Part shown: positions 3,941-49,933 of the stretch, in pieces
Position numbering within the stretch: position 1 is the first letter of the stretch
How the letters are laid out: each line of letters starts with the position of its first letter
DNA from: Barnesiella sp. An55
Lineage (GTDB): Bacteria; Bacteroidota; Bacteroidia; Bacteroidales; Barnesiellaceae
Direction: 5' to 3'
Length of the DNA stretch: 64,000 bases
NCBI RefSeq assembly: GCF_002161555.1
Contig: NZ_NFHZ01000011.1
Span: 62,001-126,000 of the forward strand
Notes under the pieces: model-generated
Databases searched by the model: none
Told to the model about the DNA's origin: nothing
Seen by the model: the letters and a program-made list of their open reading frames with translations, nothing else
Translations under genes and position numbers: made by a program

Positions 3941-4005
3941 GCCATGCACTCTCATCCCTTTATTCTAATGTATTAGTAGGTAAACTTTTCTATACGCAGT
4001 TGTGT

Positions 4006-4052
4006 AGAAAAAGAAAAAGACTGTGCCAAAACTTATCGTCCTGGACACAGCC
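4006..4052 (-). terminator. Rho-independent terminator of the nuclease gene
   Basis: CTGTG (4021-4025) pairs with CACAG (4046-4050), extended by CC/GG around one bulged A. On the minus strand the stem is followed by a T-rich tract (tctttttcttttt). It lies just past the minus-strand gene ending at 4126. The rest of 3941-4125 holds nothing recognisable. Confidence 0.6.
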
Positions 4053-4125
4053 TTTAATCGGCCGCGTGAATAAGTGTCTTTGCGGTCGGTCCCCTTTTTA
4101 AGCTGTCAGTCTCAGCGGGGGTATT

Positions 4126-5865: not shown

Positions 5866-5893
5866 GGATGAAATTAAAGCATAAATTTAAGGG

Positions 5894-5923
5894 CAAAAGT
5901 AGTCGGGATGAGGAAAAAACAAA
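5894..5923 (-). promoter_or_regulatory. Promoter of the nuclease gene
   Basis: Minus strand: TTTG (5920-5923), an 18-base spacer and TACTTTTG (5894-5901), matching TTTG...TAnnTTTG with a slightly short spacer, 29 bases before the ATG at 5865. No reading frame in 5866-6039 looks real. Confidence 0.6.
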
Positions 5924-6039
5924 GAGCAATGCGTCAAAAATTCAAGTCAAATTGTCAAAAATATAGACGGGAAGAACTCCTCGGATATCTTTTATGTAAC
6001 CTGGTATATATGAGGAATTGGTCTGTAAATGACTTTTGC

Positions 6040-6939: not shown

Positions 6940-6970
6940 TCTAACGGGTCAAATATAGATATTCTTTGGG

Positions 6971-7002
6971 TTATATCAAAATAGAAAGTTTTTATATCAA
7001 AA
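6971..7002 (+). promoter_or_regulatory. Tandem 11-base direct repeat, probable RhaR operator
   Basis: TTATATCAAAA occurs at 6971-6981 and 6992-7002, start to start 21 bases, that is two helical turns on one face. This is the geometry of AraC-type half-sites. It ends about 28 bases before the -7 box at 7031, so a bound activator would sit at the -33 region, which has no TTTG of its own. Confidence 0.65.
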
Positions 7003-7030
7003 ACATCAGCCGATTATATATGTATGATTC

Positions 7031-7038
7031 TACTTTTG
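7031..7038 (+). promoter_or_regulatory. -7 box of the rhamnose operon promoter
   Basis: TACTTTTG fits TAnnTTTG, 32 bases upstream of the rhaB ATG at 7070. No TTTG is found at -33, as expected for an activator-dependent promoter. Confidence 0.6.
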
Positions 7039-7069
7039 CCGCATAAACTATAAATTATCTTGTATTTAC

Positions 7070-8551: not shown

Positions 8552-8566
8552 AATAGGAGAAGTATC

Positions 8567-9826
8567 ATGAAGAACGAACAAGCTGTAAGGGCAGCCTTTG
8601 AATATGCTGCCGAACGTTATGCCGCCTTGGGGGTGGATGTGAATGAGGTATTGAAAAAGATGCAAGGTATATCCTTGTCGTTGCACTGTTGGCAAACCGA
8701 CGATGTCTCGGGGTTTGAAAATCCCGACGGGCAGTTGACCGGTGGAATTCAAGCCACAGGTAACTATCCGGGCAAAGCCCGTAATATTGATGAGGTTCGG
8801 GCCGATCTGCTCGAGGTGAAATCGCTGCTTCCCGGGTCGCATCGCATTAACTTGCACGAGATATATGGCGATTTCGGGGGAAAGAGAGTCGATCGTGACG
8901 AAGTGACTCCCGACCATTTTGCCAGTTGGATGCAGTGGGCTCGGGAAAATGGGCTTAAGCTCGACTTTAACTCCACTTCGTTTTCGCATCCCAAAAGCGG
9001 TATGCTCACCCTCGCCAACCCCGATGAGGCGGTGCGTGACTTTTGGGTCGAGCACACTCGCCGATGCCGGTGGATAGCCGACGAAATGGGCCGATATCAA
9101 GGTGATCCCTGCATCATGAACTTGTGGATTCACGATGGGTCCAAAGACTTGACGGTCAATAGGCTCTACTATCGCCAGTTGTTGGAACAATCGCTCGATC
9201 GCATTTTTGCTACCGAGTATGCTCACATGAAAGATTGTATTGAGGCCAAACTCTTTGGTATCGGAGCCGAAAGTTATACGGTAGGTTCGTATGATTTTTA
9301 TCTGGGATATGGAGTGAAGCATCACAAGATTGTGACTCTTGACACCGGTCATTTCCATCTGACCGAAAGTATTGCCGATAAGATTTCGTCGCTGTTGCTG
9401 TTTACGCCCGAGATCATGTTGCATGTGAGCCGACCCATCCGCTGGGATTCGGATCATGTAACCATCATGAACGACGATACCCTCGACCTGGCTCATGAGG
9501 TGGTGCGGTGCGATGCGCTGTCGCGGGTCCATATCGGGCTCGACTATTTCGACGCTTCGATCAATCGCATAGGAGCCTATGTAATAGGTGCTCGGGCTAC
9601 TCAGAAGTGTTTCTTGCAGGCATTGCTCGAGCCGCTCGAACAGTTGCGCAGGTATGAGGCCGAGGGCCGATTCTTCGAGCGTCTTGCATTGCTCGAGGAG
9701 TGTAAGAGCCTGCCGTGGAATGCCGTGTGGGACTATTTCTGCCTGATAAACCAGGTGCCTGTGGGTGAGGATTATGTGGCCGAAATCGAGGCCTATGAAA
9801 AGAAGATAACTTCCAAACGGAGATAA
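8567..9826 (+). CDS. rhaA: L-rhamnose isomerase
   Basis: 419 residues, the same length as E. coli RhaA. Family stretches include LSLHCWQTDDVSGFE (about 35-49), the metal-site region SFSHPKSGMLTLANPD, NLWIHDGSKD, VGSYDFYLGYGVKH and LDTGHFHLTE. These belong to the Mn2+-dependent isomerase that converts L-rhamnose to L-rhamnulose. It is preceded by AGGAGA and lies 15 bases after rhaB. In Bacteroides it is known as rhaI; the symbol rhaA there denotes the aldolase, so names must be read with care. Confidence 0.97.
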   Translation: MKNEQAVRAAFEYAAERYAALGVDVNEVLKKMQGISLSLHCWQTDDVSGFENPDGQLTGGIQATGNYPGKARNIDEVRADLLEVKSLLPGSHRINLHEIYGDFGGKRVDRDEVTPDHFASWMQWARENGLKLDFNSTSFSHPKSGMLTLANPDEAVRDFWVEHTRRCRWIADEMGRYQGDPCIMNLWIHDGSKDLTVNRLYYRQLLEQSLDRIFATEYAHMKDCIEAKLFGIGAESYTVGSYDFYLGYGVKHHKIVTLDTGHFHLTESIADKISSLLLFTPEIMLHVSRPIRWDSDHVTIMNDDTLDLAHEVVRCDALSRVHIGLDYFDASINRIGAYVIGARATQKCFLQALLEPLEQLRRYEAEGRFFERLALLEECKSLPWNAVWDYFCLINQVPVGEDYVAEIEAYEKKITSKRR

Positions 9827-9832
9827 CGCGCC

Positions 9833-10867
9833 ATGGATATTCTTGTAGGTTTGCTCATTATTGCTGTGGGAAGTTTTGGCCAATCGAGTTCCTATGTTCC
9901 CATCAACAAAGTGAAGTCGTGGAGCTGGGAGAGCTTTTGGCTGGTCCAGGGAATATTTGCCTGGCTGCTGTTCCCGCTTTTGGGGGCTTTTCTGGCAGTG
10001 CCTCGGGGTAGTACACTTGCCGAGTTGTATGCCGGAGGGGTGCCCTGGCTCTCGGTTCTGTATGGTGTGCTGTGGGGGATTGGAGGTCTCACCTTTGGGT
10101 TGAGCATGCGATACCTGGGTGTAGCGTTGGGGCAGTCGGTTTCTTTGGGAACTTGTGCCGCCTTCGGGACACTATTGCCGGCTCTGTTTGGCGGGACCAA
10201 TTTGTTCAGAGGCGAAGGCCTTGTCTTGCTGATTGGGGTGTGCATCACGTTGGCGGGAATCGCGGTTATCGGCTATGCCGGCAGCCTTAAGGCCCGTCAC
10301 ATGAGCGATGAAGCCAAACAGAAAGCCGTTCGAGACTTTGCTTTTACCAAGGGAATTCTGGTAGCTCTGCTTGCCGGTGTCATGAGTGCCTGTTTCAGTC
10401 TTGGGCTCGAAGCCGGCGGAGAGGTGCAGCAAACGGCCCGCTCTTTGGGTGCGCTCGATTTGTTTGCCTTGAATCCGGTTATCTTACTGGTGACTCTGGG
10501 TGGATTTATTACCAATGCCGCCTATTGCCTATGGCAAAATGTCAAGAACCACACCGGGAAAGAGTATTTTTCGGTACCAATATCGATAGGTTTCAACAAT
10601 CTGTTTTACTGTGCTTTGGCCGGTTTGCTCTGGTATTCTCAGTTCTTCGGGTTGGGTATGGGGAAGAGTTTCTTTAATGATTCGCCGGTGATGCTTTCGT
10701 TCTCGTGGAGTATTTTGATGTCGCTCAATGTCCTATTCAGCAATGTGTGGGGTATTGTGCTGAACGAGTGGAAAGGTGTAGATCGCCGCACGATTGTGGT
10801 ACTGATAGTCGGTTTGCTGATTTTGGTTTTCTCGACTCTCTTCCCCAACTTGATTCATATAGGATAA
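9833..10867 (+). CDS. rhaT: L-rhamnose/H+ symporter
   Basis: 344 residues, matching E. coli RhaT (344). About ten hydrophobic segments span the protein, beginning with ILVGLLIIAVGSFGQSSSYVPI. Family stretches are KSWSWESFWLVQGIFAWL, GLTFGLSMRYLGVALGQSVSLG, and the end region SNVWGIVLNEWKGVDRRT. It imports L-rhamnose across the inner membrane with protons. It lies 6 bases after rhaA, so the two are transcribed and probably translated together. Confidence 0.96.
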   Translation: MDILVGLLIIAVGSFGQSSSYVPINKVKSWSWESFWLVQGIFAWLLFPLLGAFLAVPRGSTLAELYAGGVPWLSVLYGVLWGIGGLTFGLSMRYLGVALGQSVSLGTCAAFGTLLPALFGGTNLFRGEGLVLLIGVCITLAGIAVIGYAGSLKARHMSDEAKQKAVRDFAFTKGILVALLAGVMSACFSLGLEAGGEVQQTARSLGALDLFALNPVILLVTLGGFITNAAYCLWQNVKNHTGKEYFSVPISIGFNNLFYCALAGLLWYSQFFGLGMGKSFFNDSPVMLSFSWSILMSLNVLFSNVWGIVLNEWKGVDRRTIVVLIVGLLILVFSTLFPNLIHIG

Positions 10868-36515: not shown

Positions 36516-36626
36516 TAACCATTATTTTTATGAGACATGAGTCGTTTTTTATCAGTAACGACTGGGGTGGAGATTTGGTTTGGAATAATTTCCAGAAAAA
36601 AATGGAACAGTATCAATAAATTGTGT

Positions 36627-36634
36627 TACCTTTG
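36627..36634 (+). promoter_or_regulatory. -7 box before cobalamin riboswitch 1
   Basis: TACCTTTG fits TAnnTTTG and lies about 10 bases before the riboswitch starts, so transcription would begin close to its 5' edge. Confidence 0.5.
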
Positions 36635-36639
36635 TGGCG

Positions 36640-36815
36640 CATTGGTTTCGAAACCCCGTTCGGGGTGTAGAATGAAAAGGGAATCGGGTGCAAGTCCCGA
36701 ACAGTCCCGCTGCTGTAAGCTCCCATAGAGGTGCCGAGAATACTTGAAAGCCACTGATTATGACGATTGGGAAGGCCTCGGTTACCGGAGTAAGTCAGAA
36801 GACCTGCCATGCTTT
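36640..36815 (+). ncRNA. Cobalamin riboswitch 1 (btuB leader)
   Basis: The conserved core is complete: GGGAATCGGGTGCAAGTCCC, then AACAGTCCCGCTGCTGTAAG (B12 box region), GCCACTG, GGGAAGGC, and AGTCAGAAGACCTGCC at the 3' side. It is followed by about 125 bases of expression platform before the btuB ATG at 36941. High adenosylcobalamin is expected to lower expression of the downstream transporter operon. Confidence 0.95.
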
Positions 36816-36940
36816 GTGTCATTAGCTTTCGGGGGGTAGAGCTTGTGAATCTGCAGAGGGGGATGACAATACCCGCATCTGCCTGTTTACATTGAACTTT
36901 TTGGGAAAGAACCCGCCCGAGGCTGTAAAAGAATAGTCCG

Positions 36941-38956
36941 ATGGAAAGACTTTGTCGTTGGGTATCGTTTGGTTGTATAATCGTGGCGCTGGCACTTGTG
37001 CCGGGGCGGGCGTGGGCCGGTGCGCCTTCGTCGCCCGACTCGATACAGACCCAGAGCCTGGGCGAGGTGATGGTTACCGCCAACCGGTACAGCGAGGTGA
37101 TTCCCTCCCAGAAACTCGCGGGGAAGGAGTTGCAGGCGCTCAACAGCTTTTCGGTAGCCGATGCCATACGCTATTTCTCGGGGATACAAATCAAGGACTA
37201 TGGCGGAGTGGGCGGTTTGAAAACCGTCAACATCCGTAGCATGGGTACCAACCACATGGGGGTCTATTACAACGGCATCCAGTTGGGCAATGCCCAGAAC
37301 GGACAGGTCGATTTGGGCAAATTCTCGCTCGAGAATATCGAGGAGATTTCGCTCTATAACGGGCAGAAGAGCGAGATATTCCAGTCGGCTCGCGAGTTCG
37401 GTTCGGCCGGTTCCATCTATCTTACGACCCGCCGGCCCAAGTTCAAACCGGGCGAGAAATCGCACCTGAAAGCCTCGCTGAAGGCCGGTTCGTTCGATCT
37501 CATCAACCCCTCGGTACTCTTCGAATACAAGCTCAGCGAGAGTGTGAGCATGACTTTCAACAGCGAGTGGACCAACTCGAGCGGCAAGTATAAGTTCCGT
37601 TACAAGCGGGTTACCCCTTCGGGCGAGGTGGCCTACGACACCACGGCTACCCGGCAAAACGGCGATATTGATGCCGTGCGCTTCGAGGGCGGGTTGCAGG
37701 GCTATCTCTCCAACGGTTTCTGGAAAGCCTATGTCTATCATTACAGTTCCGAGCGAGGAATCCCCGGCGCCATTGTCAACAACGTGTGGCGCAACGGCGA
37801 GCGGTTGTGGGACCGCAACTCCTTCGTGCAGGGCGTTTATCAGCAGGATATCACACGCAAATACAGCCTCAAGGTCAATGCCAAATATGCCTTTGACTAC
37901 ACCCACTATGTGAACAACGACGACAAGCTGATGCGGGTCGATAACCAATACAAGCAGCGTGAGGTCTATGTGTCGGTGGCCAACAAGTACTCGATACTTC
38001 GCAACTGGGACATGTCGGTGGCCTATGACATGCAGTGGAACGGCTTGTCGGAGTATCTCTCGGCCAGCCGCTACACGCACTGGATTTCGGCGGCTACCGC
38101 CTTTTCGCTGGCCGACCGTCTCAAGATGCAGGCCAGCGTGCTGGCCACCCTCGTCGATGAGACTACCGAGGGGCAGGCCAAGGCTCCCAACAAGAGCAAG
38201 GTGACCCCGGCCCTCTTCCTTTCGTACCAGCCGCTCAAGCGATACAACTGGGTGTTGCGTGCCTTCTATAAACAGATATATCGCATGCCCACCTTCAACG
38301 ACCTCTATTATACCGATATGGGTAATGCGGCCTTGAAACCCGAGAGTGCCACCCAGTACAACGTGGGGTTCACCTATGCCGTGGCTCCCAAAACGGGATT
38401 CCTCTCGGGATTCCACACCGGGGTCGATGCCTACTATAATCTGGTGAAAGACAAGATTGTAGCCTATCCCAAGGGGCAGCAGTTTCGCTGGACCATGCTC
38501 AACCTGGGAAAGGTCGATATACGGGGCATCGACGTGCAGGCAACGGCAACCTTCCGTCTGCCTCTCGAGATGGGGCTGATGACCAAGGTACAATATACCT
38601 ACCAGGAGGCTATCGATATTACCAGTCCCAGCGACAACTACTACCGCGACCAGATACCCTACATCCCCTGGCACAGTGGTTCGGCCATTCTGGGACTCAC
38701 CTACAAGGATTGGGGGCTCAACTACAGTTTTGTCTATGTGGGCGAGCGTTACAACCAGCAGGAGAATATCGAGTACAACTATGTGCAGCCGTGGTACACG
38801 AGCGACATATCGCTGGTGAAGTCGTTCAAAATCAAAGCCGTGTCGCTGAAGGTGACGGCCGAGGTCAACAATCTTTTCGACCAGGCCTACGATGTGGTGC
38901 TCAACTACCCCATGCCCATGCGTAACTATCGGTTTGGCATAGCTATCGAATTATGA
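36941..38956 (+). CDS. btuB: TonB-dependent cobalamin receptor, BtuB-like
   Basis: 671 residues. Signal peptide to about 26 (ending WAGA). The sequence LGEVMVTANRYSEVIPSQKL (about 38-58) has the TonB box/plug entry, followed by a plug domain (DAIRYFSGIQIKDYGGVGGLKTVNIRSMG) and a 22-strand barrel ending in the outer-membrane signature YRFGIAIEL with terminal hydrophobic strand. Control by a cobalamin riboswitch and the following btuG-like gene make B12 the probable substrate. It imports cobamides across the outer membrane with energy from TonB-ExbBD. Its stop overlaps the next start (ATGATG). Confidence 0.93.
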   Translation: MERLCRWVSFGCIIVALALVPGRAWAGAPSSPDSIQTQSLGEVMVTANRYSEVIPSQKLAGKELQALNSFSVADAIRYFSGIQIKDYGGVGGLKTVNIRSMGTNHMGVYYNGIQLGNAQNGQVDLGKFSLENIEEISLYNGQKSEIFQSAREFGSAGSIYLTTRRPKFKPGEKSHLKASLKAGSFDLINPSVLFEYKLSESVSMTFNSEWTNSSGKYKFRYKRVTPSGEVAYDTTATRQNGDIDAVRFEGGLQGYLSNGFWKAYVYHYSSERGIPGAIVNNVWRNGERLWDRNSFVQGVYQQDITRKYSLKVNAKYAFDYTHYVNNDDKLMRVDNQYKQREVYVSVANKYSILRNWDMSVAYDMQWNGLSEYLSASRYTHWISAATAFSLADRLKMQASVLATLVDETTEGQAKAPNKSKVTPALFLSYQPLKRYNWVLRAFYKQIYRMPTFNDLYYTDMGNAALKPESATQYNVGFTYAVAPKTGFLSGFHTGVDAYYNLVKDKIVAYPKGQQFRWTMLNLGKVDIRGIDVQATATFRLPLEMGLMTKVQYTYQEAIDITSPSDNYYRDQIPYIPWHSGSAILGLTYKDWGLNYSFVYVGERYNQQENIEYNYVQPWYTSDISLVKSFKIKAVSLKVTAEVNNLFDQAYDVVLNYPMPMRNYRFGIAIEL

Positions 38957-40125
38957 TGAGAGGCAGTTTTTTACATATAATCACCGGAGTGGTGTTGGCG
39001 ATGCTGGCGACGATGACCTCGTGTCGCGAGGACGATGTAATCATCCTCACCGAGTATGAGCCCTATCCCGGCATGCTCGATACCTCGTCGCCCTACGCCG
39101 GGCTTTACCTGCTCAACGAGGGGAATATGGGGTCGAACAAATGTACGCTCGACTTTGTCGATTTCGAACAGGGCGAGTATGCCCGCAACCTCTATGCCGA
39201 GCGTAATCCAAACGTGGTCAAGGAGTTGGGTGATGTGGGCAACGATATACAGATTTACGGCTCCAAACTCTATGCCGTCATCAACTGCTCGCACAAGGTC
39301 GAGGTGCTCGATGCCCGCACCTGCAAGCGCATCGGGCAGGTCGATATCCCCAACTGTCGCTATGTAACCTTCGACGGGGGGTATGCCTATGTGTCGGCCT
39401 ATGTGGGGCCGGTGGGGATTGACCCCAACGCCCAGCTGGGAGCTGTGTTCCAGGTCGATACGGCTACTCTCGAGGTGACTGCCGAGGTGACGGTGGGCTA
39501 TCAGCCCGACGAACTGGTTGTGCAGGACGGGCTCATCTATGTAGCCAACTCGGGCGGGTATCGCAAACCCAACTACGACTATACGGTATCGGTGGTCGAT
39601 ATCGCCACGATGACCCAGATACGCAAGATTCCCGTGGGGATAAACCTGCATCGCATCCGGGCCGACCGCTACGGCAAGCTGTGGGTGTCGTCGCGTGGCG
39701 ATTACAACACGGTGCCCTCGCGCCTCTTTGTCCTGGAGAAGGATGGGCGCACCGGCCGCATGGAGGTGAGCGACACGCTCGATATCCCGTGCAGCGAGAT
39801 GGAAATCTGTGGCGACTCGCTCTACCTGTACAGTGTGTCGTGGAGCGATGTGTCGCAGGAGAATAGCGTGACCTATGGCATTGTCGATGTGCGCACCGGC
39901 AAACTGGTCTCCGACAACTTTATCAAGGACGGTACCGATGCCGACATCGATATCCCCTATGGGTTGAAGGTGAACCCCTACAACGGCGACATCTATGTGA
40001 CCGATGCCAAGAACTATGTCTCGAGCGGGAATCTGCTCTGTTACGGCCGCGACGGGAAATTGAAGTGGAAAGTACGCACTGGCGATATCCCTGCGCACAT
40101 GGCTTTTTTGAAAAAAACTAACTGA
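38953..40125 (+). CDS. btuG: BtuG-like surface cobalamin-binding beta-propeller lipoprotein
   Basis: 390 residues. Lipobox MTSC near residue 24 followed by REDD, which fits the surface lipoprotein export signal. From about 45 the sequence is a YncE/DUF5074-type propeller: GLYLLNEGNMGSNKCTLDFVDF, DVGNDIQIYGSKLYAVINCSHKVEVLDA, YQPDELVVQDGLIYVANSGGY, SVVDIATMTQIRKIPVGINLHRIRAD. In Bacteroides thetaiotaomicron BtuG proteins of this architecture bind B12 with extreme affinity and pass it to BtuB. Overlap with btuB by 4 bases and riboswitch control support the same role. Residue-level B12 contacts were not checked. Confidence 0.88.
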   Translation: MMRGSFLHIITGVVLAMLATMTSCREDDVIILTEYEPYPGMLDTSSPYAGLYLLNEGNMGSNKCTLDFVDFEQGEYARNLYAERNPNVVKELGDVGNDIQIYGSKLYAVINCSHKVEVLDARTCKRIGQVDIPNCRYVTFDGGYAYVSAYVGPVGIDPNAQLGAVFQVDTATLEVTAEVTVGYQPDELVVQDGLIYVANSGGYRKPNYDYTVSVVDIATMTQIRKIPVGINLHRIRADRYGKLWVSSRGDYNTVPSRLFVLEKDGRTGRMEVSDTLDIPCSEMEICGDSLYLYSVSWSDVSQENSVTYGIVDVRTGKLVSDNFIKDGTDADIDIPYGLKVNPYNGDIYVTDAKNYVSSGNLLCYGRDGKLKWKVRTGDIPAHMAFLKKTN

Positions 40126-41333
40126 TGGATATGAAACGAATCTTGTACCTTTTTCCGATGCTTTGGCTTCTCTTTTTGACCGCTTGCCAAAGCGATACCC
40201 CGGCCATGATTTCGCTGGGACTCGACGATGCCTATGTGGTGGAACGCATGAAGAGCCTCTCCCTTCACCCCCAGTTCTCGGGCGAGCGGTATGAGTGGCA
40301 CCTCTCTTACGAATCGACAGCCGTCGATTCGCTGGTGGCGACTACCCGCGACTATACCTTTGTCGCTCCCAAGACCGGGACTTATTGGTTGAAGCTGAAC
40401 ATCTACGATGCGGTTAATCCTGTGGAACATCTCATGCAGATTGTCGTACACGATGAGGAGGTTGCCTATAGTCCCTACATTACCCGGGTCCTCGAATATC
40501 GTCCGGCACCGGGACAGTTTGTCAACGAGTTGCCGCAATATAACGAGGGAGATACCGAGGAGACCATGCGGCAAAAGGCCGAGGATTGTCTGGCCTATAA
40601 TGCCGGTACCCTGGTGACACTGGGCGGTTATGGCGGTTACATTGTCGTAGGGTTCGACCACACGATAGTCAATCACCCGGGCGAATACGACTTCAAGATT
40701 TTGGGCAATGCCTTTTACTCTTCGTCAGCCCAGGGGGCCTCGGGGGGAAGCAGCGAGCCCGGTATCGTGATGGTATCGGTCGATGTCAACGGCAACGGTA
40801 TTGCCGACGATGCGTGGTACGAGCTGGCTGGCAGCGAATATGGCAAGGAATCGACGGTGAAGAACTACCAGATTACCTACTATCGCCCCGACGAAGGCAA
40901 GACTCCGGAGCCCGGTACCGATCCCAGTGTAACCGATGCAACTTATGTGCGCTGGACCGATAATCAGGGGAGCACGGGATATATCTCGAAGCTGACCTAT
41001 CACAAGCAAGCATACTATCCCCAATGGCTTGCGAGCGAAACCCTTTCGTTCGAGGGTACCCGCCTGGCCGATAATGCTGTCGATGAGAGTGGCAACGGTT
41101 CCTACTATGTGCTCTATGCCTATGACTGGGGCTATGCCGACAATCATCCCAACGACAGCGAAAAGTCGAATTTCAAGATCGATTGGGCCGTCGATGCCCA
41201 GGGTAATCCCGTGACGTTGCCGGGTATCGATTTCGTCAAGATATATACCGGGGTCAACCAGTTCAACGGTTGGTTGGGCGAGTGCTCGACCGAGGTGGCC
41301 GGAGTAACCGATCTCCATGTCGATGCTCATTGA
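40125..41333 (+). CDS. Riboswitch-controlled surface lipoprotein with PKD-like N-terminus
   Basis: 402 residues. Lipobox LTAC near residue 21 (QSD follows). Residues about 35-110 form a PKD/Ig-like beta domain (SGERYEWHLSYESTAVDSLVATTRDYTFVAPKTGTYWLKLNIYD shows the W..DG.....PGTY pattern in weak form). The rest (about 150-400) is a single domain of unknown fold with LVTLGGYGGYIVVGFDHTIVN, DFKILGNAFYSSSA, SEPGIVMVSVDVNGNG and DFVKIYTGVNQFNGWLGE. Proteins of this kind are annotated only as cell surface proteins in Bacteroidales B12 loci. The ATG shares a base with the btuG stop, making a three-gene transport operon. A cobamide-binding or receptor-lid role is inference. Confidence 0.75.
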   Translation: MDMKRILYLFPMLWLLFLTACQSDTPAMISLGLDDAYVVERMKSLSLHPQFSGERYEWHLSYESTAVDSLVATTRDYTFVAPKTGTYWLKLNIYDAVNPVEHLMQIVVHDEEVAYSPYITRVLEYRPAPGQFVNELPQYNEGDTEETMRQKAEDCLAYNAGTLVTLGGYGGYIVVGFDHTIVNHPGEYDFKILGNAFYSSSAQGASGGSSEPGIVMVSVDVNGNGIADDAWYELAGSEYGKESTVKNYQITYYRPDEGKTPEPGTDPSVTDATYVRWTDNQGSTGYISKLTYHKQAYYPQWLASETLSFEGTRLADNAVDESGNGSYYVLYAYDWGYADNHPNDSEKSNFKIDWAVDAQGNPVTLPGIDFVKIYTGVNQFNGWLGECSTEVAGVTDLHVDAH

Positions 41334-41401: not shown

Positions 41402-41437
41402 AAGAAAAAGAAAAAGAAAAAGAAAAAGAAAAAGAAA
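41402..41437 (+). repeat. (GAAAAA)n hexanucleotide tract before riboswitch 2
   Basis: Five full GAAAAA units (41404-41433) plus partial units at both ends, purine-only on the plus strand, ending about 15 bases before the second riboswitch. A tract of this kind can change length by slippage. It lies where the promoter of the second B12 operon would be expected; no TAnnTTTG box is present there. Confidence 0.8.
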
Positions 41438-41451
41438 TAGTGTAGTGCGCA

Positions 41452-41612
41452 CAGGTTCGGCTGGTAAAGCCGATTAAAAGGGAATCGGGTGCAAGTCCCG
41501 AACAGTCCCGCTGCTGTGAACTCCAAACAAAAGGTGCCGGGAAGGACGTCACTGATTTTGATAATCGGGAAGGCCTCGGTAGCCGGAGTAAGTCAGAAGA
41601 CCTGCCGTGCGT
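41452..41612 (+). ncRNA. Cobalamin riboswitch 2
   Basis: Same core as riboswitch 1: GGGAATCGGGTGCAAGTCCC, GAACAGTCCCGCTGCTGTGA, CACTG, GGGAAGGC and AGTCAGAAGACCTGCC. About 150 bases of platform follow (with a CCCG/CGGG hairpin near 41655-41668) before the ATG at 41763. It implies the genes from 41763 onward are also repressed by B12. Confidence 0.95.
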
Positions 41613-41762
41613 ATTGTCTCAAAAGCTTGCGAGGTATGAGCTGCGACAAAAATGACTCCCGGTGTATCGGGCGGGTTCTATGGGGCATGAGTAAACCATA
41701 TCTTGCAAGTATTGAAATGGAAACGCGATTGTTTAATTTTAATACTTAAAGATTTAACCGAA

Positions 41763-44700
41763 ATGAAAAAATTTTATCTTTTCATGTTTTTGCTGCTTGC
41801 GGTAGTGCAGTTGCCAGCACAAGTTCTTGTGCAGGGATGTCCGCACCCCACAGCCATGCAATTGGTATTGCCCCAGGCAATTGCCGATGGAACCTTTACT
41901 ATGGATATGATTGAAAACTGGACCGGCGAGGGCTCCAATCGAGCAGCCTTGGCGGTGCAGTGGAATGTCGATGGCGAGGAGAGCGCCCTCGTGTGGGGCT
42001 TTCGCTGGGATGGCGAAGCTACCGGAGCTACCATGATTATGGCCATTGCTGCGGCCGATCCCCGGTTTGTCATTGCTTCGGAGTCGGGCACGGCTTTTGG
42101 CAGCACGGTATCGGGCTTGGGTTACGATGTCAACAAGAGCGGCGATTTTGCCATCTCCAAAGATGGCGAGGTGTTGCATGCCAATGAGATAGGACTTATT
42201 CCCATGTCGGGCTATACCTACGACGGATGGAGTTGTACCGATCCCGAGGATTACTGGCAGTCGGGGTGGTATCAGGGCTATTGGTCATACTGGACCAAAT
42301 CGAGCGATAGCGAGCCCTGGGGATACAGCAATATGGGTATCTCGGGCCGCAAGCTCACCAACGGCTGTTGGGACGGTTGGAGTTTTGCCGCCGGCATGCA
42401 GTCGTATGCCTGGAAACCGTTGGCCGCTGCTTCCAAAAACGGATTGACGGCCCCCTCGGTAAAAACTCAACCCGAGAGCCTGGTCGTATCGCCGGGCGAA
42501 CCCGTGACCTTTGCTCCTGTATTTGGAGGCGACAGCCTCACTTTCCAGTGGTATAAAGACAAGACGGTGATTCGAGATGCTGTCTCGGCTACCTATTCGA
42601 TTGCGTCGGCTACGACAGGCGATGCCGGCAGTTACTATTGCTTGGCCAGCAACCGCCTGGGCACGGTTTCAACCGAAACGGTTACCCTTACCGTGGGTGA
42701 GAAACCGGTAGTGGCCATGCCGGGCGAGGTTCCTGGTACGGCCGTCGTCATGTATGACGATTCCTATGCTACGTTCTCGGGAACCCTGACCATTCCTTCG
42801 ACCGTCGAACTCGACGGGAAACCCTGTACGGTGACGGGGATTGGCGACATGGCCTTCATGGGTTGTGTCAAACTCACGGCTGTGGTTCTCCCCGAGACGG
42901 TGCAGACGATAGGCGAGGGAGCTTTCTATGGGTGTTCTCGTTTGGCGTCAATCACTTTGCCTGCCGCCATCACCGCGATTGGAGCCGAAGCCTTCGGCGA
43001 TTGTGTGTCACTGGCTACGCTCACGACCAACGAAAATCTTAAAACCATAGGCCGTTCGGCTTTTGCCGGTTGTGCGGCTTTGACTTCTGTGACTTTACCC
43101 GAGGGGGTAACTTCGCTGGGAGCCCTGGCTTTCAAAGATTGTGTCAAACTGACCTCGACAACGTTGGGCAACTCGCTCACACAGGTGGGCGATTCGGCCT
43201 TCTATGGCTGTGCCGCACTGGCTGCCGTGGCTCTGCCCGCTACGGTCAATCGGGTAGGCAACCATGCGTTCTATGGTTGCAACTCTTTGCGTACGATGAC
43301 ACTTGCCGAGCAATCGGCCTTGCGCGAAATAGGGGCGTATGCCTTTGCCGAAACGGCTGTCGAGTCGGTAGCTTTGCCCGACGGCCTCACCTCGCTGGGC
43401 AACTATGCCTTCAACAAGTGTACTTCGCTCACGACCGTATCGCTGGGCAATGGACTCACCGCCATCGGCGACTATACTTTTGCCGATTGTAAGGCGCTCA
43501 CCTCGGTCGAACTGGGCAAGGCGCTCACTACGATTGGCAGCCGTGCCTTCAACAATGCCGCTCTCACCTCGCTGGTGTTGCCCGAGACGATGCAGACGAT
43601 AGGCGAATGGGCCTTCTATTACTGTCCTCTCACGACACTCACACTTAACAACAGGTTGCAGTCGATAGGCAGTCGGGCTTTCTATGGTGCTGCAATACAG
43701 TCGCTCGATATTCCCAACAGCGTGACAGAGCTGGGTACCTATGCCTTCAGCAGCTGCAAGAAACTCGAGAGTCTCACCGTGGGTACCGGTATTACCCAGA
43801 TAAGCGACTATGCCTTCAATGGCTGTTCGGCTCTCTCGCAAGTCTCTTCTCCCGCTGTGACCGAGATAGGAGCCAGTGCCTTCAAAGGATGTACGGCCTT
43901 GAAGTCGTTGCCCCTGAACGACCGTATTGTGACATTGGGCGGTTCGGCCTTCTCGGGCTGTACGGGTATTACCGAAGTGACGGTTCCCAACAGCGTTACT
44001 TCAATGGGTTCTTCGGTCTTTGAGAAGTGTACGGCCTTGACTGCGGCAACGCTTGGCACGGGTCTCGCATCGGTCCCCGATTATACCTTCAACGGTTGTA
44101 CGGCCCTCACGGCGGTGACTCTGCCTGCCAATATCACTGCGATAGGCAAGTATGCTTTCCAAAGCACTGGATTGACGACTTTGCCTTTGACCGAACAGAT
44201 AACCGAAATCAAGGACTATGCCTTCAAAGGGTGTACGAAATTGACCGAGGTCGATGTGCCCGACCGGGTGACTGCCCTGGGCGGCTATGTCTTCAGAGAG
44301 TGTACCGGCTTGCGCACGGTCCGCATGGGCGGTGGGATAACCGCTGTGCCCACCTACGCCTTCTACGGCTGTACGGTACTCGAATCGGTTGTGCTCTCCG
44401 ACAAGATTGTCGAGATAGGCGACTATGCCTTCTACAACTGCAAGGGTTTGAAAAAACTGCCCGAGGCTCCCGGGGTGACTACTTTCGGCAAGTCGGCCTT
44501 CTATGGCTGCACGGGGCTGGAATCGGCTCAATTTTCCGATAAGGTGACGACCCTGGGTTCGGCCATCTTCTCGGGATGTACCTCGCTAACCTCGATTGTA
44601 GTACCCGATGGGGTGACTTCGCTGGGCGCTTCGGCCTTCTATGGCTGCTCTTCCCTGGAGTCGGCCGTGTTGGGTGCCGGGGTGAAGAAACTCGATTCGA

Positions 44701-45431
44701 ACCTCTTCAAGAACAATACTTCGCTCACCCGGGTGGTGGCCAACGGTGCCATAGCTTCGGTATCGAACTATACCTTTGGCGGCTGCACCGCTCTCGAGCG
44801 TATCTATATCAACAGCGCACTCCCCTCGGGAGCAAGTTCCAATACCTTCGACAAGGTGCCCGAGAGCTGCAAGATCTATGTTCCGGCCGAGGCCTGCGAC
44901 GACTATGTCGGAGCCAACTACTGGAACAAGTTTGAGATTCTGCCCTGGCTCACCGAACTCTCCATCGTATCTACCACTCCCGAGATGACCTTCGACGGTG
45001 GTACTGCCCTCGAAATTGACGGACAGACAACGACCTTCACCGTTACCTTTAACCGTAATCTGGTAGAGGCCGACGCCGTTACGGCCGTGTTGAAACAGGG
45101 TGATGCCGAACTTGAAGGGCAGACCTTCAAACTCTCGAGCGAAGGAGCCGTGCTCACACTCATGCGCGAGGGTGAAGTTCTTGCCGCCGGCGACTATACG
45201 CTGGTGGTGACCACCGCAACCGCTACCTTCCAAATCTCTTTCCGGGTGGCTACGCCCACCGGCATCGAGGGTATCGGAGCCGACAAGGAGGTGTTGATGT
45301 GCGAATACTATTCGGTCGATGGCAAGCGTTTGCCGGCTCTCGCACCGGGTATAAACCTGGTGAAAGTCGTGTATGACGACCATTCGGTCGAGGTGTTGAA
45401 GGTCTTTGTCAACCCCGACCTGCGTCGCTGA
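41763..45431 (+). CDS. B12-regulated LRR surface protein with novel N-terminal domain and Ig domain
   Basis: 1222 residues from the ATG at 41763; the frame is open to 41703 but the signal peptide (MKKFYLFMFLLLAVVQLPAQ) fixes the start. Residues about 40-220 form a domain shared with the next gene: NWTGEG, ALAVQWN, ALVWGFRWDG, ADPRF, GLGYDVN, WSCTDPEDYW. An Ig-like domain follows (about 235-315; QPESLVVSPGEPVTFAP...DAGSYYCLASN). Then about thirty BspA-type LRR_5 repeats of 23 residues run to about 1045 (IG..AF.GC..L..V.LP), a cap (IYVPAEACDDYV), a further beta domain and a sorting-like C-terminus (YYSVDGKRLPALAPGINLVKVVY). It sits directly under riboswitch 2. It may bind cobamides, B12 carrier proteins or other surface partners. 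Confidence 0.85.
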   Translation: MKKFYLFMFLLLAVVQLPAQVLVQGCPHPTAMQLVLPQAIADGTFTMDMIENWTGEGSNRAALAVQWNVDGEESALVWGFRWDGEATGATMIMAIAAADPRFVIASESGTAFGSTVSGLGYDVNKSGDFAISKDGEVLHANEIGLIPMSGYTYDGWSCTDPEDYWQSGWYQGYWSYWTKSSDSEPWGYSNMGISGRKLTNGCWDGWSFAAGMQSYAWKPLAAASKNGLTAPSVKTQPESLVVSPGEPVTFAPVFGGDSLTFQWYKDKTVIRDAVSATYSIASATTGDAGSYYCLASNRLGTVSTETVTLTVGEKPVVAMPGEVPGTAVVMYDDSYATFSGTLTIPSTVELDGKPCTVTGIGDMAFMGCVKLTAVVLPETVQTIGEGAFYGCSRLASITLPAAITAIGAEAFGDCVSLATLTTNENLKTIGRSAFAGCAALTSVTLPEGVTSLGALAFKDCVKLTSTTLGNSLTQVGDSAFYGCAALAAVALPATVNRVGNHAFYGCNSLRTMTLAEQSALREIGAYAFAETAVESVALPDGLTSLGNYAFNKCTSLTTVSLGNGLTAIGDYTFADCKALTSVELGKALTTIGSRAFNNAALTSLVLPETMQTIGEWAFYYCPLTTLTLNNRLQSIGSRAFYGAAIQSLDIPNSVTELGTYAFSSCKKLESLTVGTGITQISDYAFNGCSALSQVSSPAVTEIGASAFKGCTALKSLPLNDRIVTLGGSAFSGCTGITEVTVPNSVTSMGSSVFEKCTALTAATLGTGLASVPDYTFNGCTALTAVTLPANITAIGKYAFQSTGLTTLPLTEQITEIKDYAFKGCTKLTEVDVPDRVTALGGYVFRECTGLRTVRMGGGITAVPTYAFYGCTVLESVVLSDKIVEIGDYAFYNCKGLKKLPEAPGVTTFGKSAFYGCTGLESAQFSDKVTTLGSAIFSGCTSLTSIVVPDGVTSLGASAFYGCSSLESAVLGAGVKKLDSNLFKNNTSLTRVVANGAIASVSNYTFGGCTALERIYINSALPSGASSNTFDKVPESCKIYVPAEACDDYVGANYWNKFEILPWLTELSIVSTTPEMTFDGGTALEIDGQTTTFTVTFNRNLVEADAVTAVLKQGDAELEGQTFKLSSEGAVLTLMREGEVLAAGDYTLVVTTATATFQISFRVATPTGIEGIGADKEVLMCEYYSVDGKRLPALAPGINLVKVVYDDHSVEVLKVFVNPDLRR

Positions 45432-45461
45432 TCGACCGGGATACAACAAATCACGGGTGTT

Positions 45462-45484
45462 CTCCCGGGGCTGAGCTCCGGGAG
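45462..45484 (+). other. Intercistronic hairpin
   Basis: CTCCCGGGGCT pairs with AGCTCCGGGAG (one G-U pair) as an almost perfect palindrome between the LRR and propeller genes. No T-run follows, so it is more likely an mRNA processing or stability element than a terminator. Confidence 0.5.
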
Positions 45485-45513
45485 GCTCCCTTAAAAAAGA
45501 GAAACAGAGCAAG

Positions 45514-47694
45514 ATGAAACGATATATACTCCTTTTGACCGCCTGGATGAGCAGTATGCTTGCGCTCGTCGGGGCCTATCCGCTCTCCGATATCACCTAT
45601 TGGACGGGCGAGGGAGAGGTCGAGGTAGCCTTGGTGATAGCCTGGAACGACGGTCGTTTGCCCGAAGCGTTGGCCTGGGGCTACCGGGGCACTGGCGAGA
45701 CTACCGTGGTGACCATGCTCAACGAGGTGGTGAAGGCCGATCCCCGGCTCTTTTCGCTCACCCGTCGTCAAGGGGGTTATACGGTCGATGGACTTGGTTT
45801 CGACCTGAATGGCGAGAATACCATAGCTTTGGTGGTGGGGGGCGATACCACCTATCCCAAGTATCAGCCATCGGGGCTGTTCACTTCGACTCCCAACAAC
45901 TACAACCGCTGGAGTTGTACCGACGCAGAGGACCACTGGAATTCGCCTACCGAGGCCGAACCCGGTGTGTGGCGTTGTCTCGAGCTGAGTCCCGACGGCG
46001 CAACTGTCGAGGCCGATGTGAATACCACCCGCCTGCAACCGGGTGCTACCTATCTGTTCTGTTACGAGATGCCCGACGGCAGCCGCCCCGACCACACCGG
46101 GGCCGTGGCTGTGGAACCCTATGAACTGGCACCGGTCGATTACACGCAAGGCATCTTCCTGGTCAACGAGGATTGGTATGGCTGGGACAATGGTACGGTC
46201 AATTTCCTCACGAGCGACGGCCATTGGGTCTATCGGGCTTTCCGGCGGGAGAACCCCGGAGAAACGCTGGGCGTGACCACTCAGTATGGTGCCATCTATG
46301 GCGACCGTTTTTTCTTCGTGTCGAAACAGGCCAACGGCTCGACCGACTCCTCGACAGGAGGCCGGTTGGTGGTGGCCGATGCACACACTTTGAAAAAGAT
46401 TGCCGCCTTCGACGAGCTGGGAGGCGATGGACGTGCCTTTGTAGGGGTCGATGAGAAGACCGCCTACATAAGTACCTCGGCCGGTATCACGCGCCTCGAT
46501 TTGGAGTCGATACGTGTGGGCGAGACGATTGCCGGTACTGCCGGAGACGGAGGCCTTTATAGCGGGCAGGTAGGAGCTATGGTGCGAGCCGGCCGCTATG
46601 TGTTTGCCGCCAAGCAGTCGGTAGGAGTGCTGGTCATCGATGCCGCCTCCCACACGTTATATACGACGCTCGAGTTACCCACCATATCGACCCTTACTCT
46701 GGGACGCGATGGTTGTGTATGGGCGGCCGATGCCACTTCGCTCATTCGCATCGATGTGGCTACCCTCGAGATGTGGAATCGCCCGTTGCCCGAAGATTGT
46801 CGGGTATCCAGTAGCTGGGGTGCGTGGAATGCTGGCAGTTTATGTGCGGCATATCGAAAAAATTTTCTTTATTTTGCAAATGAAAAAGGAAAACAAATAG
46901 CCCGTTACCATATCGATACCGACGAATTGGATGCGGCATTTTTTACCTTGCCCGACCAGGACAAGGAATATGTACAGCAGTTTCAAGGAGCCGGCTTGCG
47001 GGTAGAGCCGCAGAACGACCGCCTGTTCGTGACCACGACCCAGAGCGGTTACCTGTCGCATTACATGCACAATTGGGTGTATGTGGTCGATGGCCTCTCG
47101 GGCGAACGGTTGAATACGGTAGAACTCGAACCCTATTACTGGTTCCCGGCCATGCCGGTCTTTCCCGACAACGAGGCTCCGGTTATCGCAATAGCCGACG
47201 AGCTGACGGTAGCCGACGAACCGATGAAACTCTCGTTGCTCGAGGCTGTGACCGATGCCGATAATCTGTCGGCTGCCATTGTATCGACCGTCGCTGTCGA
47301 GGATAGTACGGTAGCTGCTGCCCGGGTGTCGGGGTATGACCTCACGTTGACGGCCGTGAAACCAGGCGATACCTGGTTGACCCTCACGGCCAATTCGAAT
47401 GGCCGACTTGCCACAAAGCGTGTCGCGTTGCATGTGACCGGTGTGAGTGCGGCGGCGCGGATAGAGACCAGATGCATAGAGGCTTGGCCCAATCCGGTAC
47501 ATGATTGGCTCACGTTGCGCGCTCCTGCGGGTTCGACCTTCAGGGTGACCGACTTGCGGGGAGTGGTTGTGTGCCAAGGTCGGGTAACCGATGTGCCGGC
47601 TGGCATAGACCTCTCGGGTGTTTCGCCTGGCGTCTATCTGCTTGCGGTACAACGGGGCGATGAAATAGAGAATATACGACTTATAAAGCAATAA
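45514..47694 (+). CDS. B12-regulated beta-propeller surface protein with shared N-terminal domain
   Basis: 726 residues. Signal peptide to about 21 (ending GAYP). Residues about 25-205 repeat the N-terminal domain of the LRR protein upstream (YWTGEG, ALVIAWN, ALAWGYRGTGE, ADPRL, GLGFDLN, WSCTDAEDHW). From about 215 a DUF5074/YncE-like propeller follows (GIFLVNEDWYGWDNGTVNFLTSDGHWVYRAF; GRLVVADAHTLKKIAAFDELGGDGRAFVGVD; GRYVFAAKQSVGVLVIDA), related in type to BtuG. Then comes an Ig-like segment (about 545-640) and a type IX-like sorting domain (EAWPNPVHDWLTLRAP...GVYLLAVQRGDEIENI). Its propeller and riboswitch control suggest a secreted or surface relative of BtuG that is anchored by a different route. 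Confidence 0.83.
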   Translation: MKRYILLLTAWMSSMLALVGAYPLSDITYWTGEGEVEVALVIAWNDGRLPEALAWGYRGTGETTVVTMLNEVVKADPRLFSLTRRQGGYTVDGLGFDLNGENTIALVVGGDTTYPKYQPSGLFTSTPNNYNRWSCTDAEDHWNSPTEAEPGVWRCLELSPDGATVEADVNTTRLQPGATYLFCYEMPDGSRPDHTGAVAVEPYELAPVDYTQGIFLVNEDWYGWDNGTVNFLTSDGHWVYRAFRRENPGETLGVTTQYGAIYGDRFFFVSKQANGSTDSSTGGRLVVADAHTLKKIAAFDELGGDGRAFVGVDEKTAYISTSAGITRLDLESIRVGETIAGTAGDGGLYSGQVGAMVRAGRYVFAAKQSVGVLVIDAASHTLYTTLELPTISTLTLGRDGCVWAADATSLIRIDVATLEMWNRPLPEDCRVSSSWGAWNAGSLCAAYRKNFLYFANEKGKQIARYHIDTDELDAAFFTLPDQDKEYVQQFQGAGLRVEPQNDRLFVTTTQSGYLSHYMHNWVYVVDGLSGERLNTVELEPYYWFPAMPVFPDNEAPVIAIADELTVADEPMKLSLLEAVTDADNLSAAIVSTVAVEDSTVAAARVSGYDLTLTAVKPGDTWLTLTANSNGRLATKRVALHVTGVSAAARIETRCIEAWPNPVHDWLTLRAPAGSTFRVTDLRGVVVCQGRVTDVPAGIDLSGVSPGVYLLAVQRGDEIENIRLIKQ

Positions 47695-47721: not shown

Positions 47722-48687
47722 ATGAAAAAATTTTTACTTGCAATGGCCTTGTGCGTGTGTGGCGCCGTTTCGGCCGAGGAGATTGTGTTGGATCTTGCCA
47801 ATCCCAATAACCCCGTCAATTATGACGAAAGTGGGGTGTGGACCAATGTGTATAAAGACGATATGATTTCTTCGCAACAGTTCGTATTCTCTCATGGCGT
47901 AACATCGCCCACTTCTTTCTATGGTTTTGTCCCCAGCAAATCGACTACGATTACCGCTTCGGCCGGTATGGACGACCAGTTTGGCTGCATGGCCAAGGGT
48001 GGTTATGCCGGTGAAGGCACTCCTTTCTTTGTATCGTATTGGGATTCCTATACCGAGTCAACGCAAGACATGTACAGCTGTGAGGCATTTACACCCAACT
48101 CCTATTATGCCGTGGGTTGCTATGTGTGCAACAGCCCCTATGTCTATTATACGATTCAGCAAGGTAATACCTACTCCAAGAAATTCGAGCAGGGCGACTG
48201 GTTCAAGCTGGTAGTTCACGGGGTCGATGAGTTTGATTCAGAGGTGGGTACGGTAGAATATTATTTAGCCGACTACCGCTCGCAGAACCCTGAGGAGTGG
48301 AAACTCAACAACTCGTGGGAATGGATTGACCTGAGCTCGCTGGGTCGGGTGCTGACCATCTATTTCACCCTTGAGTCGAGCGACACGGGCGAGTGGGGTA
48401 TGAATACTCCGGCCTATTTCTGTCTCGACCGGCTTACGGTTTCGACCGATAAACCTTCGTCAATCGAGGAGGCTGCAGTTGCTACGGTAAAAGCCTATTA
48501 CGATCGTGCCAACGGTTTGATTCGTGTAGAGTCGGCCAACCCGGTAGAGGCTGCTGTTTACAACATGAATGGAGCTTTGGTAATGAACCAGTATGTAGAT
48601 GGCACGGCTTCGATCGATATGAGCGCTTATCCCTCGGGCGTATATGTAGTGCGCTGCGGTGGGTATAGCGTGAAGATTGTCAAGTAA
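47722..48687 (+). CDS. DUF4465 secreted protein with sorting C-terminus
   Basis: 321 residues. Signal peptide to about 18 (ending VSA). The DUF4465 core spans about 25-240: CMAKGGYAGEGTPFFVSYWD, CYVCNSPYVYYTIQQG, KKFEQGDWFKLVVHGVD, GTVEYYLADYRSQ, WEWIDLSSLGRVLTIYFTLESSD and NTPAYFCLDRL. The last 75 residues form a type IX-like sorting domain (VEAAVYNMNGALVMNQYVDG...PSGVYVVRCGGY). DUF4465 proteins recur in Bacteroidales B12 loci; I know no proven biochemical role for this one. It follows the propeller gene after 27 bases, so it belongs to the riboswitch-2 operon, and it is closed by a terminator. Confidence 0.88.
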   Translation: MKKFLLAMALCVCGAVSAEEIVLDLANPNNPVNYDESGVWTNVYKDDMISSQQFVFSHGVTSPTSFYGFVPSKSTTITASAGMDDQFGCMAKGGYAGEGTPFFVSYWDSYTESTQDMYSCEAFTPNSYYAVGCYVCNSPYVYYTIQQGNTYSKKFEQGDWFKLVVHGVDEFDSEVGTVEYYLADYRSQNPEEWKLNNSWEWIDLSSLGRVLTIYFTLESSDTGEWGMNTPAYFCLDRLTVSTDKPSSIEEAAVATVKAYYDRANGLIRVESANPVEAAVYNMNGALVMNQYVDGTASIDMSAYPSGVYVVRCGGYSVKIVK

Positions 48688-48946: not shown

Positions 48947-49933
48947 ATGAACGTATTAAAACTTAAGATGCGAATGAGAATAATGTTACTTGCTTTGGCA
49001 GTTTGTCTTTATGGTACAGTTTCGGCCGAAGTCATTGTGTTGGATTTGTCGAAGCCGATAGAAGCAATTGAATATAACGAGAAAGGAGTATGGACCGACG
49101 TCTATAAGGATGGGAGTATCATACGCTCGCAAGAGTTTACCTTCTCGCATGTTTCGTCATCGCCAACTTACTACAACGGCTTTTTTGCCAGCCAGTCAAG
49201 CACGATATTCGAGAGTGCCAGATCCAACGACCAGTGGGGCTGTATGGCTCGTGGAGGCTATGCCGGTGAGGGTTCCCCTTATCTGGTTGCCTACTGGGAT
49301 TCCGAACTTTTATCGGTGGAGAATAGTTGCCAGGTAACCATGTCGTCTCCCTATTATGCTGCCGGGTTTTATGTGTGCAACAGCCCCTATACCTACTATG
49401 CGATACAAAAAGGGAACATACTGGCCAAGAAGTTTGAACAAGGAGACTGGCTCAAACTGATTGCTCACGGGGTCGATGCCTCTGGTACCGAAACAGGAAC
49501 GGTAGAGTACTTTCTGGCCGATTATCGGGCCGAGAAACCGGAATAGTGGACTTTGAACAAGTCGTGGGAGTGGGTTGACCTGAGTTCCCTGGGTAAAGTC
49601 TCGTCGATCTATTTTACCCTCGATTCGAGCGATAAGGGCGAGTATGGCATGAAGACACCATCCTACTTTTGCCTCGACCGCCTCACGGTATTGACCGTCC
49701 CTTCGTCGGTCGAAAATACTGCGCTTCCTACGGTTAAGGCCTACTACGACCGGGCCCAAGGTGTAGTGCGGGTAGAGTCGGTCGAGCCGGTAGAAGCAGC
49801 CCTATATAATATGCACGGCATGCTGATGATGAAACAACAGGTGGATGGGATATCCACTTTCGATATGACGGCTTGTCCGTCGGGTATTTATGTAATACGC
49901 TGTGGAGAATATCAAGTGAAGATTGTAAAATGA
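48947..49933 (+). pseudogene. Second DUF4465 gene, broken by an in-frame amber codon
   Basis: One frame of 328 codons interrupted at TAG 49544-49546. Before it lies signal peptide plus DUF4465 (CMARGGYAGEGSPYLVAYWD, KKFEQGDWLKLIAHGVD, GTVEYFLADYRAEKPE). After it the same frame continues with WTLNKSWEWVDLSSLGKVSSIYFTLDSSD through the sorting domain to the stop at 49933. In the upstream paralog the aligned codon is GAG (Glu, in NPEEW), so a single G-to-T change explains the break. Two separate genes are unlikely: the downstream part would start at TTG without a signal peptide. The rest of the sequence is undamaged, so the mutation is recent, or the stop is read through at some level. Truncated secreted product would lose the C-terminal sorting domain. 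Confidence 0.85.

Follow-up and report, generated by a model that had tools for sequence, protein, structure and literature searches.

A riboswitch-linked domain family with the predicted fold of the transcobalamin beta domain, from a B12 locus of Barnesiella sp. An55

Two consecutive genes behind a cobalamin riboswitch of Barnesiella sp. An55 encode proteins of different architecture, called here A and B, that open with the same domain, and the question raised by this locus is what that domain does there. The window is a stretch of 64,000 nucleotides (positions 62,001 to 126,000 of contig NZ_NFHZ01000011.1). A sequence-only reading of it had described the domain as mobile, joined in A to immunoglobulin (Ig) and leucine-rich repeat (LRR) modules and in B to a BtuG-type propeller, and had proposed a new cobamide-related or surface-docking module. 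From the analysis below, it is probably a module that is exported and binds cobamide; the fold predicted for it is the beta grasp known from the beta domain of transcobalamin and intrinsic factor.

Every motif listed for the two copies is present in both: WTGEG and ADPR are common to A and B, and the others form the pairs ALAVQWN/ALVIAWN, ALVWGFR/ALAWGYR, GLGYDVN/GLGFDLN and WSCTDPEDYW/WSCTDAEDHW. Using BLASTP, the two N-terminal domains show 38% identity over 128 residues (E 1e-24). Pfam bears out the architecture given for A, with an Ig domain and six BspA-type LRR_5 stretches in total. The second half of the domain carries a canonical YWSYW...LTNGCWDGWSF in A and is diverged in B. Pfam and NCBIfam gave no name to the shared domain, and a genome-wide search at E<=1 recovered A and B only, with no third copy.

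The tie to B12 regulation recurs well beyond the window. A scan with a single genome for each species gave 225 confirmed stretches; the best 80 were kept as loci (L numbers), and Rfam was run on 53 of them (22 of the 27 left out are Chryseobacterium). A cobalamin-class riboswitch lies upstream on the same strand at 47 of the 53 loci (46 RF00174, one RF01689), within 1.2 kb in 25 and at 1.2-6 kb in 22. We then counted over whole genomes (G numbers), with chance figures that assume random placement and count related genomes as independent. In a first set of 37 genomes, which hold 98 riboswitch matches genome-wide, a riboswitch is found no more than 10 kb upstream at 34 of 37 loci, against 0.14 expected. 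A second set, chosen by the domain alone from relatives, Bacteroidota and Planctomycetota and including the genome of the window, shows the link in 22 of 24 genomes and 29 of 31 copies (0.09 expected); five of the 24 (G021, G031, G048, G053 and G059) overlap the first set. A third set of 22 previously unused genomes from the other two of the four phyla sampled shows it in 18 genomes and 22 of 26 copies (0.035 expected), the riboswitch of two of these 18 (G797 and G912) being just under the gathering score. The B12 link of the domain family is strong.

The structure predicted for the domain points the same way. An AlphaFold2 model of the A domain, built with 56 sequences, reached a predicted local distance difference test score (pLDDT) of 94.2 and a predicted template modelling score (pTM) of 0.90. 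The first 17 Foldseek rows for this model are intrinsic factor, transcobalamin (human, bovine and rat) and the Ruminococcus gnavus protein 3u7z, with a best match at E 0.011 and probability 1.00; row 18 is unrelated, and rows 19 and 20 are rat transcobalamin and haptocorrin. Using VIA-align (VIA), the B12 carriers intrinsic factor, transcobalamin and haptocorrin align at Z 10.2-11.4, with a root-mean-square deviation (rmsd) of 2.1-2.4 over 101-107 residues, and 3u7z at Z 9.8, against Z 5.3 for the next unrelated fold. In full-length carriers the aligned region is C-terminal (residues about 289-427), and there are also matches to the beta domain of transcobalamin on its own (5no0, apo; 5np4, human and cyanocobalamin-bound). 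The A domain thus matches, as a predicted fold, the B12-binding beta domain of these carriers.

A hairpin inserted directly after the helix is described in PMC1796856, in the part of it consulted here, as the mark of the transcobalamin-like clade of the SLBB beta-grasp proteins. The model of the A domain has a helix at 46-56 with the hairpin E60-68/E71-79 directly behind it, and the conserved glycine expected just after strand 2 is found as G42. In the alignment of the 56 members, numbered as in the model, G42 follows the strand at 33-40 and is kept in 55/56 rows, as is W132 of strand 4; the connector residues G150, L156 and G159 are kept in 53/56, 46/56 and 49/56 rows, and W161, at the start of strand 5, in 47/56. 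G71, found in 50/56 rows, may by element order correspond to the turn glycine before strand 3, and all residues were mapped onto transcobalamin-type elements by this order, without superposed coordinates.

The genes around the relatives were searched by phmmer with the window proteins (E<=1e-3, in the fetched flanks of the 80 loci), and BtuB relatives were found near the domain at 44 loci, BtuG-type relatives at 42 and BtuH-type relatives at 28. Riboswitch control, B12-uptake neighbours at about half of the loci, the fusion to a B12-type propeller in B and the predicted fold are together best explained by a cobamide-binding module, and a B12-carrier fold predicted for a family with riboswitch-linked relatives in several phyla suggests that this is probably an unrecognised bacterial B12-capture module. 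The proposal of a cobamide-related module is supported, the riboswitch count suggested as its check having come out strongly positive, and it has become more specific through the predicted fold, which is shared with the beta domain of transcobalamin and intrinsic factor. Under cobamide shortage the cobalamin riboswitch would permit expression of the A and B genes; both proteins would be exported and held at the cell surface, B having a type IX secretion system (T9SS) tail, and the domain would bind cobamide there. We also infer, as parts of this scheme, that one face of the domain is used for binding, that A is displayed at the surface and that the ligand is handed over. If the reading is true, an exported B12-binding family would be added to the capture proteins BtuG, BtuH, BtuJ and BtuK, bacterial B12 scavenging would be tied to a fold employed by two human carriers, intrinsic factor and transcobalamin, and exported proteins of an anonymous class would gain a function.

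Several results weigh against a cobamide-binding module. A common fold with B12 carriers is no proof of a common ligand, and Foldseek scores the match only modestly (E 0.011 or above, query TM-score 0.36-0.42 for rows 1-17). None of the 56 members matches PF14478 (DUF4430) in a Pfam scan at E<=1. An hhalign comparison with 14 planctomycete DUF4430 domains gave, in two alignments, a probability below 1%, and with 33 insert-free copies, run with 30 column-shuffled controls and one reversed control, 4 of the 30 shuffled controls outscored the real pair. Searched against the PDB, the family profile found no chain at E 10, and a smaller first profile found the unrelated STIM2 alone (E 0.67); a DUF4430 alignment likewise missed transcobalamin in such a profile search. 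After these Pfam, profile and hhalign results we dropped a sequence link of the domain to DUF4430 or transcobalamin, and in the absence of a profile link the relation to transcobalamin is a predicted-fold match, not a demonstrated homology.

The sequence-only reading had allowed for a match to an already characterised family; there is one at the level of the fold, but in sequence no Pfam model is better than E 0.0066 for the 56 members and the only NCBIfam model to match repeatedly, SCO2322_fam (NF040672), lies under its cut-off wherever a score is listed. The latter matches 17 of the 56 at E<=1, weakly (best 5.6e-6), with 17-21 bits where listed against a cut-off of 85: 17-20 bits for the window domain, 20-21 for L048 and L089. 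These matches fall in the C-terminal YWSYW...WDGWS half, for example at 8587-9141 of L048. Among the control genomes Haloferax volcanii gave the sole match, below cut-off, and no paper was found under the name of this family. As background, genes of the SCO2322 family lie near cobalt/B12-type transporters in actinobacteria.

Further points of the same kind come from the loci and from the domain itself. The riboswitch is missed at 6 of 53 loci, 3 of 37, 2 of 24 genomes and 4 of 22, and the chance figures carry the assumptions named above. The six loci are L021, L022, L057, L060, L061 and L082. At L021 and L082 the contig begins less than 320 bases from the domain, the genome of L061 has its sole cobalamin match 0.9 kb upstream of the domain (27 bits, under the gathering score), and L060 has a cyclic di-GMP (c-di-GMP-I) riboswitch directly upstream in place of a cobalamin riboswitch. 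The second set misses in G304 and G673, the latter a genome without any such riboswitch, and the third in G738, G799, G853 and G939. The known B12 binder DUF4465 was found near the domain at 3 of 80 loci only in the phmmer search, and at six BtuB-free loci no B12 transport gene was found among 10 neighbours scanned out of 72 candidate proteins. The long form of the domain, as in A, has about 50 extra residues (80-129 of the model) that are absent from short forms. Finally, the diverged second half of the domain in B is without the YWSYW strand motif, and cobamide binding is therefore less certain for this copy than for that of A.

This last feature also fits the strongest rival, the surface docking of the sequence-only proposal, which is possible: the domain would bind a partner (BtuB, BtuG/BtuK or another surface protein) and so gather B12 binders, its ligand site being unused, and the B copy, at least, might then not bind ligand. 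In favour of it, BtuB and BtuG relatives lie near the domain at 44/80 and 42/80 loci, and the propeller to which it is joined in B looks like a B12 binder in its own right. By contrast, stand-alone and tandem copies exist that are led by a riboswitch and have no BtuB or BtuG relative in their fetched flanks by phmmer at E<=1e-3 (L033, L048, L053 and L032, for example), and the fold is specifically that of the B12-carrier beta domain, so that we hold docking to be rather unlikely as the role of the domain.

The domain could instead bind something related to B12 but short of a complete cobamide: cobinamide, alpha-ribazole or a lower-ligand base, for example. Control by cobalamin riboswitches would suit any B12 precursor, and in transcobalamin the hairpin of the beta domain stacks on the lower-ligand base, according to the part of PMC1796856 consulted; the propeller fusions of B and its relatives, and the nearest PDB titles, which are those of B12-binding proteins or cobalamin complexes, make this very unlikely. 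A general beta-grasp adhesion or scaffold domain merely travelling with B12 operons is highly improbable, for all that beta-grasp domains are functionally diverse (PMC1949818) and that this one is linked to LRR, Ig and Big_2 modules, since the riboswitch link is far above chance in samples from four phyla and other beta-grasp folds score far lower in VIA.

The propeller of B also speaks for the cobamide-binding reading. The BtuG-type propeller that had been named for this protein is indeed of the DUF5074 type, but among solved structures BtuK1 is the closer one in sequence (E 2e-23, against E 0.008 for BtuG-type chains). In VIA its best matches are BtuK1 (9s6c, Z 35.1) and BtuG2 (Z about 32.5), other propellers reaching 28 at most, so that B12-binding structures are its nearest neighbours. 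BtuK1 binds cobalamin and binding by BtuK2 was not seen, as stated in the part of PMC12751083 consulted. In the AlphaFold2 model of B (542 residues, pLDDT 81.8, pTM 0.69), residues 14-169 have the same element order as the A domain. A tentative extension, which we consider possible and no stronger than that, is that B and its relatives are two-lobed carriers in which the beta domain would close over a cobamide lying on the propeller, the stand-alone and tandem copies being minimal carriers. The propeller would then stand in for the alpha/alpha toroid that animal carriers have, and the family would form, next to DUF4430, a bacterial branch, as yet unnamed, of the animal B12-carrier domain; Pfam found no such toroid in the 12 full-length domain proteins scanned.

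The propeller of B is like BtuK1 and BtuG of Bacteroides. The solved chain of BtuK1 begins at the propeller, unlike protein B, and the BtuK2 chain (4r5o) is longer. VIA aligned residues 19-536 of the B model with 36-448 of BtuK2 (Z 31, rmsd 4.7), a run that hardly probes the N-terminal domain, and residues 191-535 only with BtuK1, a shorter span. BtuK2 may thus have, at its N-terminus, a domain similar to the shared one; 4r5o is absent among the matches listed for the isolated A domain in Foldseek and VIA, and no sequence match between the shared domain and BtuK2 was found.

Compared with the beta domain of intrinsic factor, transcobalamin and haptocorrin, the bacterial domain has in common the predicted fold, the hairpin after the helix, the glycine after strand 2 and an extracellular setting. 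It differs in sequence (9-13% identity to the A domain), in the extra segment of about 50 residues of the long forms, and in its partners, which are a propeller, LRR or Ig, or none at all. With DUF4430 it shares, by eye, the strand-helix pattern, and 3u7z, the fold match at Z 9.8, is presumably of the DUF4430 type; the family has no hidden Markov model or profile match to DUF4430. In the same 199 Planctomycetota genomes PF14478 occurs in 12, the present family in 9 and both in none, as if the two replaced each other, in numbers too small to tell. In the part of PMC1796856 consulted, bacterial members of the transcobalamin-like clade are proposed as B12 scavengers, the hosts listed are Gram-positives, planctomycetes and some archaea, and the fusions described are with Ig-like domains and, in Clostridium, with a propeller. 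The part of PMC10404256 consulted makes no mention of transcobalamin. BtuH and the DUF4465/BtuJ binders belong to the same kind of operon and have the same role as proposed here but are of different families, BtuJ being a jelly roll (PMC12751083; also PMC8941943 and PMC13398666, each in part); none of the 56 members matches PF14717 (DUF4465/BtuJ) at E<=1.

No description of the domain was found in the literature covered, namely the papers cited here and, beyond these, titles and the beginnings of abstracts, subscription journals and preprints being outside this scope. As far as this literature shows, the family, its setting in cobamide operons of Bacteroidota, its coupling to cobalamin riboswitches in several phyla and its fusion to BtuK/BtuG-type propellers are new; the B12-binding fold is known, and the family is without an existing model.

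Relatives of the domain were found in Bacteroidota, Planctomycetota, Armatimonadota, Verrucomicrobiota/Kiritimatiellia and Desulfobacterota. A search with the B domain was positive in 11 of 60 genomes of relatives, that of Barnesiella sp. An55 included. Of 395 Bacteroidota genomes drawn evenly, 8 matched a 13-sequence profile, Barnesiella sp. An55 again included, a count made with a smaller profile and a looser threshold than those of the other phyla. These gave 9/199 genomes in the phylum of L033 (Phycisphaerae; Planctomycetota), 15/121 in that of L061 (Armatimonadetes) and 10/145 in that of L074 (Verrucomicrobia), including 3, 2 and 1 genomes, respectively, known from the species scan. The frequency over the four phyla is thus about 2 to 12% of sampled genomes. 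The best 80 loci comprise, in Bacteroidota, Bacteroidales, Flavobacteriales, Weeksellaceae, Porphyromonas and Parabacteroides, and elsewhere Phycisphaerae, Fimbriimonadaceae and other Armatimonadetes, Verrucomicrobia, Kiritimatiellia, Desulfobacterium and one deltaproteobacterium.

The mobility claimed for the domain is seen in its several architectures. It is followed by a DUF5074 propeller and a T9SS tail in B, L049 and L064, by DUF5074 and Big_2 in L050 and L070, and by Big_2 in L068. Tandem proteins have two or three domains (L027-L032, L038 and L046; that of L032 has a T9SS tail in the domain scan), and L047 has two copies. Stand-alone domain proteins with a PEP-CTERM-like end occur in Planctomycetota, Armatimonadota and others, with scan support for some: matches are above cut-off in L033 and L089 (TIGR02595) and L060 (VPLPA-CTERM) and below it in L061 and L072. 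The scan found no sorting signal in L052, L062, L074 and L098, and L048 matched SCO2322 only. Two further impressions were gained by eye only: a propeller ahead of the domain in L019, L020 and L023 (for L019 Pfam gave a T9SS tail alone), and a region like the surface protein labelled BtuH-type in L013 and L047, where phmmer with the window protein found no match at E 1e-3.

On the Bacteroidales contig of L076, two consecutive riboswitch-led genes (2493-8582 and 8963-10666) carry four and three domain copies, the first protein having 2030 residues. At two loci c-di-GMP-I riboswitches adjoin the domain genes, after the cobalamin riboswitch in L054 (4139-4588) and instead of it in L060 (3786-3865), and these genes are possibly controlled by c-di-GMP as well as B12. 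The PEP-CTERM genes described in the part of PMC12530212 consulted follow c-di-GMP riboswitches, and the term cobalamin riboswitch also occurs in it.

In the window the genes follow two cobalamin riboswitches. The first precedes the BtuB-like, BtuG-type and BtuH-type-labelled genes, and the second precedes A and B, behind which lie two DUF4465 (BtuJ-family) genes. Their coordinates are collected in Table 1.

Table 1. Features of the B12 locus in the window (positions in the 64,000-nucleotide stretch)
Feature	Position	Strand	Basis
Cobalamin riboswitch RF00174 before btuB	36626..36824	+	cmscan 99.9 bits
BtuB-like TonB-dependent receptor	36941..38956	+	Pfam TonB barrel 3e-33 and plug
BtuG-type propeller protein (DUF5074)	38953..40125	+	Pfam 2.8e-17
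Surface protein labelled BtuH-type	40125..41333	+	label guessed from layout (weak PKD-like stretch) and position
Cobalamin riboswitch RF00174 before proteins A and B	41435..41623	+	cmscan 113.5 bits
Protein A: signal peptide (by eye), transcobalamin-beta-like domain, Ig, BspA-type LRR	41763..45431	+	
Shared domain of protein A	41889..42464	+	AlphaFold2 model, fold matches
Ig domain of protein A, residues 231-311	42453..42695	+	Pfam Ig_3/I-set
Best-scoring LRR_5 stretch of protein A, residues 359-486	42837..43220	+	Pfam 5.9e-193
Protein B: shared domain, BtuK/BtuG-type propeller, T9SS tail	45514..47694	+	
Shared domain of protein B, second half diverged	45571..46071	+	BLASTP to A; model secondary structure
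DUF5074 propeller of protein B, residues 212-551	46147..47166	+	Pfam 6e-110
T9SS type A sorting domain of protein B, residues 658-726	47485..47691	+	TIGR04183 31 bits, cut-off 23
DUF4465 (BtuJ-family) protein with T9SS tail	47722..48687	+	Pfam DUF4465 4e-49
Second DUF4465 protein, shortened by in-frame stop	48947..49546	+	Pfam 6e-24

The NCBIfam model TonB-B12 matches the BtuB-like receptor at 1.2e-31 and 110 bits, under its cut-off of 599.7, and the Pfam and NCBIfam scans gave no family above cut-off for the surface protein labelled BtuH-type. The sorting domain of B scores 23.3 bits with Pfam PF18962, under the cut-off of 27, and the T9SS tail of the first DUF4465 protein scores 28.4 bits with TIGR04183, above the cut-off of 23. 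In the second DUF4465 gene a stop stands at 49544-49546 and the frame is open past it, with matching sequence to 49933, so that 48947-49933 is either a broken gene or the site of a sequence error.

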